A stretch of DNA of 25,906 nt from a virus. The number at the start of each line of letters is the position of its first letter. Within the stretch, counting starts at the first letter, position 1. The notes beneath the pieces were generated by a model that saw nothing but the letters and a program-made list of their open reading frames with translations, did not search any database and was not told where the DNA came from. The position numbers and the translations under genes are program-made. The stretch spans positions 1 to 25,906 of the IMG/VR virus record IMGVR_UViG_3300048921_000058; one strand, given 5' to 3'. Below are positions 15,736-20,407 of the stretch, piece after piece.

Positions 15736-16068
15736 ATGAAACTGGCAGATCTGAAAAAGAAGGGAGGCGTCATCACCGACGCCTTCGTGAAGAAGTCCGT
15801 CGAATGGACCCACAACGTCAAGGGCAAGGACGTTACCGAAAAGTTCGATATCCACGTCCGCCGGCACGCGTTTGGCGTCATGGAAGCAATGTTCATCGGT
15901 GGCGAGGCGCAGAAATACCGGAACGCGCGCTATCTGGCCGCCAGTGTGTTTCTCGGCCCTGATGGCGCCGAGGAGCTGCCGTTCGACGATGCGGTCAACC
16001 TCGACCCTGGACTGGGCATTGCCCTGCTGCAGGCCGTGAACGAGGTCAATGCCCCAGTAAAAAACTGA
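15736..16068 (+). CDS. Tail assembly chaperone G
   Basis: 110 residues, MKLADLKKKGGVITDAFV..., acting with its frameshifted GT form to hold the tape measure protein during tail assembly. Residues EWTHNVKGKDVTEKFDIHVRRHAFGVMEAMF lie near 22-52. The last codons are GTA-AAA-AAC followed at once by TGA. The heptamer A-AAA-AAC (16059-16065) in this phase is a classic -1 slippery site. No chaperone domain was named from a database; the call rests on position between tube and tape measure genes, length and the frameshift. Confidence 0.85.
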   Translation: MKLADLKKKGGVITDAFVKKSVEWTHNVKGKDVTEKFDIHVRRHAFGVMEAMFIGGEAQKYRNARYLAASVFLGPDGAEELPFDDAVNLDPGLGIALLQAVNEVNAPVKN

Positions 16069-16118
16069 CAGCCGCCGATGAGTTGCACCACGAACTGGTG
16101 CTCAACGGAGTCGGCGGC
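16059..16118 (+). promoter_or_regulatory. Programmed -1 ribosomal frameshift site with downstream stem-loop
   Basis: The slippery heptamer A-AAA-AAC (16059-16065) is followed immediately by the G stop codon TGA (16066-16068). After a five-base spacer, GCCGCCGA (16071-16078) pairs perfectly with TCGGCGGC (16111-16118). Inside it, GTTG/CAAC and CACCA/TGGTG (16082-16106) form a further interrupted stem with loop CGAAC. This combination is the usual design for tail chaperone frameshifting. Confidence 0.85.
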
Positions 16119-16352
16119 CGCACGATCGCGGAGCTCAAACGGAACATGAGCTACGCGGAAATGCTGTCATGGGCGGCGTATCGGGAGAAATACGGATCTT
16201 TCAACCCGATGCATCGTCAGGAGCAGATGTCGGCCATCATTGCACTGCAGGTTCACCGGCTCGGTTCTGGCAAGGCTGACCTGATCGACTTCATGCCGCA
16301 TGCCGAGCGCCCAGCGCTCACGCTGGAACAGGCGATGGAGGATTGGGTGTAA
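16065..16352 (+). CDS. T domain of the GT tail assembly chaperone (-1 frameshift extension)
   Basis: This frame has no well-placed ribosome-binding site or ATG. It is entered from gene G by a -1 shift at A-AAA-AAC (16059-16065) to give a GT fusion of about 205 residues. The T part reads LTAADELHHELVLNG, then GGRTIAELKRNMSYAEMLSWAAYREKYGSFN and ends TLEQAMEDWV. The SYAEMLSWAAYRE stretch with its downstream M/Q-rich helix is typical of T domains in HK97-like phages. The join lies at 16065, the last base of the slippery codon. Confidence 0.88.
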   Translation: MTAADELHHELVLNGVGGRTIAELKRNMSYAEMLSWAAYREKYGSFNPMHRQEQMSAIIALQVHRLGSGKADLIDFMPHAERPALTLEQAMEDWV

Positions 16353-16404
16353 TCGGTGTCGTAGTTGATGATAGATTCCCAAGTTAATTCTTGGAGGGTT
16401 TGAT

Positions 16405-16770
16405 GTGAGAAAAACATCTCTATCGGCGCTGATTTTGTCGATGGCCGCAGGGAGTGCGCAAGCCGAAACAACTATGGATCACATATCCATGCAAGTTATT
16501 TCCTATCGTTCTTTCGCTGCTGCAAATTTATGCCATGTGAACTCAGGTCTTTATGGGCAAGTTCTACAGCAACGGGAAAAAGGTATAAGCAAGAGCGCGC
16601 TTGAGGAAAAGCTTGATGTGGCCAGTGCTCCGGCGATACAGGAAATTATTGATACCGCTTATAGACCGCCAAATTCCCAAGTAGTACAGCCTGAAGATTT
16701 TTATAAGAGCTGCATTGCTTCCCAGCAGGCAGTGATTCAGAAAGAAATCGCAGGCATGTCGACTAAATAA
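16405..16770 (+). CDS. Secreted moron protein of unknown function (possible superinfection exclusion)
   Basis: 121 residues from a GTG (16405) with GGAGG (16393-16397) seven bases upstream; the nearby ATG at 16403 is followed by a stop. A Sec signal peptide is clear: MRKTS, a hydrophobic ALILSMAAG core and an AQA cleavage site before Glu21. The mature part of about 101 residues is helical with two cysteines (Cys43, Cys103), so it probably carries a periplasmic disulfide. It is visibly A+T-richer than the tail genes and is followed by its own terminator, both marks of a moron. It sits between the tail chaperones and the tape measure gene, where HK97 carries its gp15 superinfection-exclusion gene, but it is not obviously homologous. 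Its function is unproven. Confidence 0.8.
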   Translation: MRKTSLSALILSMAAGSAQAETTMDHISMQVISYRSFAAANLCHVNSGLYGQVLQQREKGISKSALEEKLDVASAPAIQEIIDTAYRPPNSQVVQPEDFYKSCIASQQAVIQKEIAGMSTK

Positions 16771-16786
16771 GCTTGCAGCCATCCAG

Positions 16787-16808
16787 ACCCGCTACGGCGG
16801 GTTTTTTT
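16787..16808 (+). terminator. Intrinsic terminator after the moron
   Basis: ACCCGC (16787-16792), loop TACG and GCGGGT (16797-16802) followed by seven T bases. It ends moron transcription just before the tape measure gene. Q-modified late transcription must read through it for the tape measure protein to be made. Confidence 0.87.
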
Positions 16809-16825: not shown

Positions 16826-19800
16826 ATGTCATCCCGTTCGCTGGGCACGTTGACACTGGATCTCGTTGCCAAAATCGGCGGCTTTCAGCAGAACATGGAT
16901 CAGGCATCAAGGTCTGTTGCGGGGTCAGGCTCAGCTGCAGTAAAGGCTTCCGCTCAGGTTCAAGTTCTCGAGCGGCAGTTCTCATCATTGGCTGGTGTGG
17001 CATCTAGAATTGCAGGGCCACTCGCTGCCGCATTCAGTGTAAACGGCATTTACAACGCCAGTGAGGCATACAGCACCCTGACGAACAGGCTGAAGCTTGT
17101 AACCAATGGCTCTGTAGAGCTTGCTACTGCTCAGGCAGCTGTATTCGGTATCGCCCAAGATGCTCGGCAGCCCCTGACCGCGACCGCCGAACTTTACCAG
17201 CGCATCGCGACGAATCAAAAGGAGTTGAAGCTCACTGGCGAAGGTGTGGCCGGCATCGTCGGCACAATCAGCAAAACGCTTGCGATCTCCGGTTCATCTG
17301 CCGAAAGCGCGAATGCCGCGTTGATTCAGCTCGGCCAGGCATTTGCCTCCGGAGTATTGCGCGGCGAGGAGCTGAATTCGGTTCTAGAGCAGGCCCCCGC
17401 GCTGGCTCAGGCGATCGCGAAAGGCATGGGCAAGACTGTTGGTGATTTGCGCAACCTCGGCGAACAAGGACTGCTCACCGCTGACGCCGTAGTGAAGGCC
17501 CTTCAGAACCAAGAAGGCGCCGTTGATTCGTTGTTTTCGAAAATGACGGCAACCATTGGGGGCAGCCTTACAGTCGTAGGAAACTCAATCACTCGGTATA
17601 TCGGTGAGATTGACCAGTTGACCGGTGCGAGCGGCAAGATCGCCGGCGAAATTCTCGCTTTTGCCAAAACCTACGATAGTGGCGTGCCACTTGTTCTTGA
17701 TGGGATCCGCGAGCACTCTGATGCTCTTTCACAAATTCTGACCACTGGCCTTTATATTGCGCTCGGTAAAGTTGCTGGCGGGTTCGCGCAGCAGGGCGCT
17801 GCGGCGATTTCGACTGCTGTAGCGAACCAAACAGCTCTTGCTTCCTCGGCCGCACTTGCCAAGCAGGATCTGTTGGCGGCTCAGGCCAAACAACTGGACG
17901 CCAAAGCATCGGTTCAGCGGGCAAATCTTGAGTTGAGCGCCGCACAGGGAAAGGTCGCTTCAGATCGGGTGCGCCAGGCCTCAGAGCTGGCCAACATCCA
18001 ATCCGTACAAGCCGCACTTGCTGCCGAGTTGACGCTTGAGCAGGAGCGCTTGAAAGCGCAGATCAACGAGCAGGGGCGCGCAGCGTCGGTTGCTCGGATC
18101 TCCGAGATTCGTCTCGCACAGGTCGCGGTGATCAAGCAGGTTGAAGCCGCGGAACGCTCCTTGGCCAGCACTACGGTGGCGTCCTCGGCACTCGTGGAAA
18201 AGGCCTATGCAGGGCGAACTGCAGCAACATTGGCTTTCGCTGAAACGACCGCCGCCGTCAACGCGCTGAGCGTCGCATCGAATAATGCCGCTGCCGCAGC
18301 CAGCGTAACCGGGCGGGCATTTTCCGCACTTGCAACTGCGGGTAGCGGAGCCTTGGCGATGCTCGGCGGCCCGGTAGGGCTGGTGTTCATCACAGCCGCC
18401 GCCGCGCTTTCCTTCATCGACTTTCGCAGCAGTGCCGACAAGGCAAAAGAGGGCCTTGAGCAGCTTCAGGGGCCGTTGGATCAGGTAATCGCCAGATTCA
18501 AATCCATGACAGAGGAGCAACGCGCCGGCGCCCTGGTTCGCTGGAGTGAGGCACAGGTTGATGCGGTGAAGGCCGCAAAAGGAGAGCTGGATACCCTCCA
18601 GGCGACTCTGAAAAAAGGGGTTCTGGGATCTGACTCGCTTTCTCTGCCGTCGAGGATTGCGGGTTCCAGCAACGACGAAACGATCAAAAGAGCTCAGGCA
18701 TACGAGGATTTGCGTACGAGGATTGACGAAGCCGCGAAAAGCGGTCAGTCGATCATTCCTATTTTGGAGGAGGCGGGCAAGGTACCTGGCGTTTCACCGA
18801 AGTTGGTAGATGACCTGAAAAAAGGCGCTGAAGCATGGTCGACGCAGAACCAAGTTGCCAGGGAAGCTGAAGATCGTCAGCGCATACTCCGGGGCGAGAT
18901 GGACAAAACCGCCGCATCGGCGGCGAATGGCGCAGCGGCGACCGGCGGAATGACCACTGCCGGCGAGAAGTACCTGAAAACCTTGCAGGCTCAGTTGGGC
19001 AAGCTGCAGGACAACAACGACGCGGTGAAGGAAGCCACCCGATACCTGGACCAGCACAAGGAACTGAGCGAGGCTGATCGGACGGCGATTATGTCCGTCG
19101 CCTACGCTACGAAAGCTCAGGATGAAGCCAACAAGGCCGCCACCAAATCGACGAAGGACGCAGCCAAAGCCCAGACCTCTCTGAAGGAGCAGTTGAAGCA
19201 GGCTGCTGCCGGTTTTCTCGACCTTAAAAAATCGTTCGATCCGGTGGGCGCAGCATCTGAGCAATTTCAGAAGTCGACCGGGCAGCTCAACCTTCTTTTC
19301 AAGAATGGGAAGATCACCCAGGAAGATTACGGCAAGGGCACCGCGTGGCTGGCAGAGCAATTCAATACTGCCACCAAGGCAGCGCTCGGCCTGTCACAGG
19401 CTGAGGAATACCGCCTTGAGCTGGAGAAGAAGCTCAACAATGATCGCGCTCAATACGCGAGCCAGGCCGCGGCAGTCGGGCAGGGTGATAAGGAAGCCGA
19501 ACGCGCGCAGCAGCGCCTGGAGCTTGAGCGTGAGACGAACGAGCGTCTGCTTTCGCTTCGCACCGAACTGGCCAATGCTACGACGGAAAAGCAGCGCAAT
19601 GACCTGCAAGCCCAGATTGATCTGACGAACGAGTATCTGCCGAAACAGGTTGATGCCATGCGTGAGGGTTTCAGGCAGATCGACGAAGCCCAGGCGGATT
19701 GGTCAAATGGTGCGCGATCAGCGTTTGCCAATTACATGGACAGCGCTTCGAACGTCGCCGAGCAGACGAAGAACCTGTTTTCTGACGCCCTCAACGGCAC

Positions 19801-20407
19801 AGAAGACGCGCTGGTGAACTTCGTCAAAACGGGAAAGCTTTCGTTCCGGGATCTGGCTGATTCGATCGTCGAGGACTTGATCCGGATCCAGATCCGGCAG
19901 GCCGCCGTCGGCTTTCTCGGAGGTTTTGCCGGGCTGTTCAGCGGCGGTGGTGGGGCTTCTACCCTGGGCGCCGGCACCATGACCGGTTTCAGCGAGGGCA
20001 GCATGGTGATGAATGCCAAGGGTGGCGTTTACGACTCGCCAAGTCTTTCGTCCTTTTCGAACCAGATTCACGACAGCCCGCAGATGTTCGCGTTTGCCAA
20101 GGGCGCCGGCATCTTCGCGGAGGCCGGCCCAGAGGCAATTATGCCGCTGACCCGAGCCGCTGATGGATCTCTTGGCGTTCGCGCGATCGGCAACGGCGAC
20201 ACCTCGGCGGCAGAAACCGCAGCCACTGAAACCTCCTCGATCGGCGGAATTACCCAGTACATCACCGTCCAAGGTTCGGCTGATGACGCCACACTGGCGC
20301 GCATCCAGCAAGCGGCCAAGCAGGGCGCTCAGGATGGCTACAGCATGGTGCTTCGCGATCTAAAAATGAACGGCCCAGCCCGGCAGCTAATTGCCAGAAA
20401 TCGATAG
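16826..20407 (+). CDS. Tail tape measure protein
   Basis: A 1193-residue protein that sets tail length and helps eject DNA. The N-terminal TMP domain is visible (SLGTLTLDLVAKIGGFQQNMDQASRSV and the SKTLAISGSSAESANAALIQLGQAFASGVLRGEELNSV stretch). Next is a long Ala/Gln/Glu coiled-coil zone (about residues 340-480), a hydrophobic segment (about 506-530, GALAMLGGPVGLVFITAAAALSF), a second coiled-coil region (about 690-960), and a lambda-family C-terminal block (NYMDSASNVAEQTKNLFSDALNGTEDALVNFVKTGKLSFRDLADSIVEDLIR) followed by a glycine-rich hydrophobic stretch. At roughly 0.15 nm per residue, the tail would be on the order of 180 nm, an inference. No lysozyme domain is apparent. GGAG (16815-16818) precedes the ATG. 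Confidence 0.93.
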   Translation: MSSRSLGTLTLDLVAKIGGFQQNMDQASRSVAGSGSAAVKASAQVQVLERQFSSLAGVASRIAGPLAAAFSVNGIYNASEAYSTLTNRLKLVTNGSVELATAQAAVFGIAQDARQPLTATAELYQRIATNQKELKLTGEGVAGIVGTISKTLAISGSSAESANAALIQLGQAFASGVLRGEELNSVLEQAPALAQAIAKGMGKTVGDLRNLGEQGLLTADAVVKALQNQEGAVDSLFSKMTATIGGSLTVVGNSITRYIGEIDQLTGASGKIAGEILAFAKTYDSGVPLVLDGIREHSDALSQILTTGLYIALGKVAGGFAQQGAAAISTAVANQTALASSAALAKQDLLAAQAKQLDAKASVQRANLELSAAQGKVASDRVRQASELANIQSVQAALAAELTLEQERLKAQINEQGRAASVARISEIRLAQVAVIKQVEAAERSLASTTVASSALVEKAYAGRTAATLAFAETTAAVNALSVASNNAAAAASVTGRAFSALATAGSGALAMLGGPVGLVFITAAAALSFIDFRSSADKAKEGLEQLQGPLDQVIARFKSMTEEQRAGALVRWSEAQVDAVKAAKGELDTLQATLKKGVLGSDSLSLPSRIAGSSNDETIKRAQAYEDLRTRIDEAAKSGQSIIPILEEAGKVPGVSPKLVDDLKKGAEAWSTQNQVAREAEDRQRILRGEMDKTAASAANGAAATGGMTTAGEKYLKTLQAQLGKLQDNNDAVKEATRYLDQHKELSEADRTAIMSVAYATKAQDEANKAATKSTKDAAKAQTSLKEQLKQAAAGFLDLKKSFDPVGAASEQFQKSTGQLNLLFKNGKITQEDYGKGTAWLAEQFNTATKAALGLSQAEEYRLELEKKLNNDRAQYASQAAAVGQGDKEAERAQQRLELERETNERLLSLRTELANATTEKQRNDLQAQIDLTNEYLPKQVDAMREGFRQIDEAQADWSNGARSAFANYMDSASNVAEQTKNLFSDALNGTEDALVNFVKTGKLSFRDLADSIVEDLIRIQIRQAAVGFLGGFAGLFSGGGGASTLGAGTMTGFSEGSMVMNAKGGVYDSPSLSSFSNQIHDSPQMFAFAKGAGIFAEAGPEAIMPLTRAADGSLGVRAIGNGDTSAAETAATETSSIGGITQYITVQGSADDATLARIQQAAKQGAQDGYSMVLRDLKMNGPARQLIARNR

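Follow-up and report, generated by a model that had tools for sequence, protein, structure and literature searches.

The window, by which we mean the whole analysed stretch of 25,906 nt, belongs to a temperate HK97-type Pseudomonas siphophage, whose relatives are Pseudomonas phages and prophages. It encodes a tyrosine integrase, a Rha/KilAC antirepressor, a Cro-like protein, an antiterminator Q, a holin, terminase, portal and capsid proteins, and a J-like tip protein. In the interval between the tail assembly chaperone and tape measure genes, hereafter the slot, direct reading reveals a 121-codon open reading frame with a GTG start on the plus strand (16405–16770, stop codon 16768–16770). The features of this region are as follows (loci of relatives are denoted by L and a number).

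15736–16352, plus strand: tail assembly chaperone pair similar to HK97 gp13/gp14, left border of the slot (phrog_1749, E 9e-32; phrog_337, E 2.5e-22).
16369–16377, plus strand: predicted extended –10 promoter TGATAGATT, with the –10 hexamer TAGATT at 16372–16377 (consensus match).
16393–16398, plus strand: Shine–Dalgarno sequence GGAGGG (direct reading).
16405–16464, plus strand: signal peptide, residues 1–20, with predicted cleavage between AQA and E (sequence; hydropathy peak at residues 6–16).
16465–16770, plus strand: mature, predicted periplasmic protein of about 101 residues (family alignment, AlphaFold2, BLASTP with L018, L014 and L015).
16785–16808, plus strand: intrinsic terminator, an 8-bp stem followed by a T tract (hairpin at 16785–16804).
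16826–20407, plus strand: tape measure protein, right border of the slot (phrog_339, E 1.4e-209).

At the left border, phrog_1749 is annotated as a tail assembly chaperone and phrog_337 as a tail protein. The slippery heptamer A_AAA_AAC is read directly at 16059–16065, at the end of the first chaperone frame, where a –1 frameshift probably fuses this frame to the one ending at 16352, as in HK97 gp13/gp14.

The frame at 16405–16770 is judged to be coding because it has homologues at 43% identity over 121 amino acids (L018, BLASTP E 9e-35) and at 31% identity (L014, BLASTP E 9e-15); L018 resides on the same contig as the Pseudomonas weihenstephanensis prophage locus L044. Residues 1–20 (MRKTSLSALILSMAAGSAQA followed by E) resemble a type I signal peptide. 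No lipobox cysteine is present in the first 32 residues, so that a lipoprotein was rejected, and along the 101 mature residues the hydropathy profile shows no hydrophobic segment long enough to span a membrane. An earlier sequence-only reading had described a secreted product of about 101 mature residues with two cysteines, a GTG start, A+T-rich composition and a terminator of its own, and direct inspection of the sequence bears out each of these properties. The GC content of the gene is 0.454, compared to 0.588 for the window. Its GC3 of 0.41, an atypical base composition as expected of a moron, is below that of all 3,454 same-length coding windows sampled from structural genes, the lowest of which has 0.516. 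The terminator hairpin folds with –14.9 kcal/mol (z –2.3). A terminator hairpin is also retained in the empty slot of L011, which is a caveat to counting it as the gene's own.

Relatives of the slot were collected via searches with the tape measure protein and the tail chaperone. After removal of near-identical slots, 39 remained, 35 with cargo and four empty (L011, L063, L086 and L089). With related phages in the set, these counts are not fully independent. Closest to the window are L001 and L002, whose tape measure proteins are 93–97% identical to that of the window (best segment) and whose cargo is a different one, an unrelated lipoprotein. The DNA of L002 and of L034, a Pseudomonas parakoreensis prophage locus, is mostly 90–100% identical to the window (92–100% for L002) approximately until the chaperone stop codon at 16352, drops to about 50% identity across the slot, and is mostly above 80% again from about 16800. 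From this profile, the exchanged unit comprises the promoter and the gene, roughly up to the terminator hairpin. As judged from these comparisons, the chaperone–tape measure interval is an exchangeable cargo site, with relatives having near-identical flanks carrying unrelated genes.

The same comparisons bear on the possibility of a late tail-assembly or virion protein. The gene lies within the tail operon, and read-through from the late promoter could transcribe it. However, it has a signal peptide, a predicted promoter and a terminator, and unrelated genes or nothing are found in its place beside 93–97% identical tape measure proteins or near-identical chaperones, while the family member in the same slot of L018 adjoins a tape measure protein that is only 40% identical. 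We consider this explanation very improbable. A virion component was rejected, as the gene is replaced or absent in near-identically flanked relatives, and the gene is thus not a required part of the virion.

The predicted promoter TGATAGATT is located 27 nt upstream of the GTG and has a weak –35 box, which explains why the built-in promoter scan made no call at 16369–16377. The sequence TGNTAGATTNCC has a single exact match in the window, at the promoter site. The pattern TGnTAnnnT is observed upstream of the cargo in 32 of the 35 non-redundant slots, against a mean of 2.8 and a maximum of 10 for shuffled upstream regions (500 shuffles), and 0.9 with a maximum of 4 for the cargo-body control. 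Usually it is positioned 21–28 nt before the cargo start codon, the exceptions being L098 (52 nt) and L043, where the start codon was misassigned by the script. Direct reading finds no such element in the four empty slot types. A TTG(A/G) near the –35 position is apparent in the motif profile of many slots; it may partly reflect the terminal Trp codon of the chaperone, and hence we rely on the extended –10 element only. The predicted promoter would suit expression of the cargo in a lysogen and makes such expression likely.

A longer form of the motif, GATGATGGTAGATTGCC, precedes envelope-directed morons at a second site of the tail operon in L106, L107, L113 and L124; the tail gene that follows there resembles lambda I (identified by eye). 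By eye, the cargo of L106 and L107 resembles the superinfection-immunity type, and that of L113 is a PHROG 2315 protein (see below). Near GATGATGGTAGATTGCC in L106, L107 and L110 the first cargo is common, while the second genes, encoding lipoproteins, differ. The 14-mer has 18 matches in 399 Pseudomonas genomes, compared to none for the reversed control. Several of these matches stand before host genes, and hence the motif probably works well as a promoter in the host and is not specific to phages. At L127, L132, L135, L136, L139 and L141, in several Pseudomonas genomes, a motif GATGGTAGATTGCC is found in a conserved region outside prophage tail slots. The gene downstream encodes a protein that contains QTQTNWCWAA and, by eye, looks papain-like.

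Base composition, the terminator (with the above caveat), a conserved extended –10 element as predicted from sequence, and insertion between genes that are adjacent in close relatives, seen from the empty slots and the sharp drop in identity at both borders, together characterize the gene at 16405–16770, on this comparative evidence, as an autonomous moron.

The cargo content differs widely between slots. It includes secreted two-cysteine proteins, lipoproteins resembling the BamE domain (a match of E 0.0026 that stays below the Pfam cut-off), lipoproteins of other kinds, membrane proteins that carry a Zn ribbon at the C-terminus, PF14373 superinfection-immunity and SHOCT proteins, and others, amounting to about a dozen unrelated and mostly uncharacterised envelope-protein families. 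An N-terminal hydrophobic segment, either a signal or a membrane segment, is present in 33 of 35 cargoes and, by a similar measure, in three of the 29 other genes of the window. An exception to this envelope-directed rule is the cargo of L115 and L117, from another phage group: the motif is followed by a protein of about 220 amino acids without an N-terminal signal (MEANRENLRALAV...). The cargo of L082 matches PF14373 Imm_superinfect (E 9.6e-18) and phrog_1039, "immunity to superinfection" (E 1e-22), and those of L084, L085 and L088 resemble it by eye. These superinfection-immunity proteins are the only slot genes that carry an annotated function. The cassette architecture and the exchange of cargo are, by these sequence comparisons, well supported, and we found no description of the slot or its promoter in Pseudomonas phages in the open-access literature.

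Cys43 and Cys103 are the sole cysteines of the window protein and are invariant in the family alignment, which keeps Phe37, Ala40, Cys43, Gly60 and Cys103 with few or no exceptions. AlphaFold2 predicts an all-helical structure with helices at residues 24–58, 63–69, 76–86 and 96–119, most of the mature domain being well predicted; its mean pLDDT is 80, with block means of 80–95 over residues 31–110, and the signal-peptide residues form a low-confidence part. Direct searches with the window protein in Pfam, phages and viral contigs yielded no homologue, and the family members came to light only when the tape measure and chaperone genes were taken as starting points. Alignment-driven scans for the window protein gave no usable conserved stretch or merely re-found two loci. 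A search of 399 genomes from the genus to which P. weihenstephanensis belongs recovered one family member, at an already known locus; 11 candidates were scored per genome in that search, so that it does not prove the family rare. PADLOC has no match for the protein. Among predicted viral structures, the top matches are small secreted proteins or lipoproteins of phages, with probabilities of 0.9–1.0 and no E-value below 0.001. They include a BUCT548 lipoprotein of 114 amino acids; the BUCT548 gene that a tblastn search with L004 detected has this same length.

A relationship to PHROG 2315 emerges from profile comparisons. Alignment of the family with a PHROG 2315-type alignment by hhalign has a probability of 94.5% (E 7.5e-8), or 88% (E 3e-6) with the three closest members only. 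The window protein itself scores no better than E 0.027 against the PHROG 2315 model, and five of ten family members match the model at E <= 0.1, the best at 6e-20. Both sides share a signal peptide, the pattern C...R..G...Y...C, the slot and the promoter type, whereas the window protein stands on a divergent branch and its N-terminal helix is longer. The slot also holds PHROG 2315-type proteins in L004, in L038 and in the published P. syringae phage phiPSA1, where gp03 is located between gp02 and the tape measure gene gp04. PHROG 2315 comprises secreted phage proteins without an assigned function, which in other phages are also found outside tail slots, and thus exclusion is not its only possible role. 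Based on these alignments, we assign the window protein to an all-helical secreted two-cysteine family remotely related to PHROG 2315.

Small secreted helical proteins with two cysteines are generally known to include T6SS immunity proteins and the HdeA chaperone. Accordingly, the product might be a periplasmic immunity protein or inhibitor neutralising a toxin or enzyme, e.g., an interbacterial effector or lysozyme. On the contrary, a fold search of the PDB with the window-protein model gave no meaningful match (best E 4.3), which argues against HdeA-like or T6SS-immunity folds, the protein has no Pfam match, and no adjoining toxin gene was seen. We regard such a role as improbable.

As the sequence-only reading had noted, HK97 gp15 stands at exactly this position, with the frameshifted tail chaperone on one side and the tape measure gene on the other. 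Like the window gene, gp15 has its own terminator, and a sigma70-like promoter, TTCACA-N17-TACGCT, is readable upstream of it. In contrast, gp15 is a protein of 62 amino acids with an N-terminal membrane helix, and the window protein is predicted to be soluble and secreted. The difference described earlier holds: the maximal 19-residue hydropathy is 0.92 in the window protein against 2.43 in gp15, and a signal peptide is present instead of an anchor. The two proteins do not align at E <= 100, and a gp15 homologue was rejected on that ground. Both gp15 and Ltp of the Streptococcus phage TP-J34 prevent DNA injection, and phages escape this effect through changes in the tape measure protein (Ltp) or in the tail tube and tape measure proteins (gp15) (PMC10883804; PMC3952083). 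Ltp is a lipid-anchored lipoprotein acting in a Gram-positive host, unlike the window protein, in which no lipobox was seen. The PF14373 Imm_superinfect and SHOCT proteins of related phages share with the window gene the slot and the promoter motif; they are membrane proteins with no homology to it. Tab, encoded by the Pseudomonas phage JBD26, is a moron of the late operon that the prophage expresses and that acts against the tape measure protein (PMC10884400). It blocks virion assembly inside the cell, whereas the window protein is predicted to be exported.

Given the gp15 precedent at the slot, the injection block by gp15 and Ltp, the immunity proteins among the slot relatives, and the encounter with the tape measure protein that secretion into the periplasm would bring about, we take superinfection exclusion to be the best explanation. 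We give a somewhat better than even chance to the window gene being an exclusion moron that is expressed in the lysogen and works in the periplasm, probably on DNA entry or on the tape measure protein. The extended –10 promoter, the single gene and the terminator would constitute an autonomous prophage cassette in an exchangeable slot. In a lysogen with a silent late operon, host RNA polymerase would start at this promoter and transcribe the gene, and the terminator would prevent it from reading on into the tape measure gene. The product would be exported via the Sec route with loss of the signal peptide, and adopt a small four-helix fold in the periplasm, where a disulfide between Cys43 and Cys103 probably staples it. 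Most likely it would interfere with DNA entry of a superinfecting siphophage, e.g., through binding to the tape measure protein on its ejection or to partners of that protein in the periplasm or inner membrane, in a manner resembling HK97 gp15 and by means of a soluble, unrelated protein. Expression in the lysogen, the disulfide, exclusion of superinfecting phages and the tape measure protein as target are all inferred. Against exclusion, the promoter is a consensus match, and the BamE-like and Zn-ribbon slot genes need not all exclude.

The main competing explanation is a lysogen-expressed periplasmic factor of other benefit to the host, for instance in envelope stress, chaperone-like protection, surface change or competition. 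The promoter, secretion and exchange evidence fits it too, and the BamE-domain-like slot lipoproteins could act on the outer membrane. We hold it to be rather unlikely, as the sole annotated functions in the slot are superinfection immunity, and the characterised occupant in Escherichia coli, gp15, excludes phages (PMC10883804).

Returning to exclusion, the proposal of an autonomous moron in the gp15 slot stands, reinforced by promoter, terminator and exchange, while the notion of an isolated new factor gives way to a two-cysteine family with a remote PHROG 2315 relation. The extended –10 promoter, the exchangeable slot and the family membership, all read from sequence, are additions to the earlier description; of the homology and structure searches that it had suggested, those with the protein itself gave no Pfam or PDB match, and the PHROG 2315 link came from profile comparison of the family. 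A broader and more tentative possibility, to which we give clearly less than an even chance, is that a shared cassette with a near-fixed extended –10 element and a terminator exchanges a large set of envelope-directed exclusion genes at dedicated tail slots of Pseudomonas siphophages, and that the window protein represents a new soluble periplasmic two-cysteine class trapping the tape measure protein in transit.

If exclusion is right, the slot and promoter would allow candidate exclusion genes of Pseudomonas prophages to be found by a simple rule of sequence, namely by taking whatever stands between TGnTAnnnT and the terminator that precedes the tape measure gene, and PHROG 2315 would gain a testable role. 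One more homologue of the two-cysteine family is observed in psageK9 (L102:1987-2240), split over two overlapping short frames at the end of the record, and may be a decayed copy or result from a sequencing frameshift. The psageK9 tape measure gene is at the start of the record, and if the record is circularly permuted, the two genes are neighbours.
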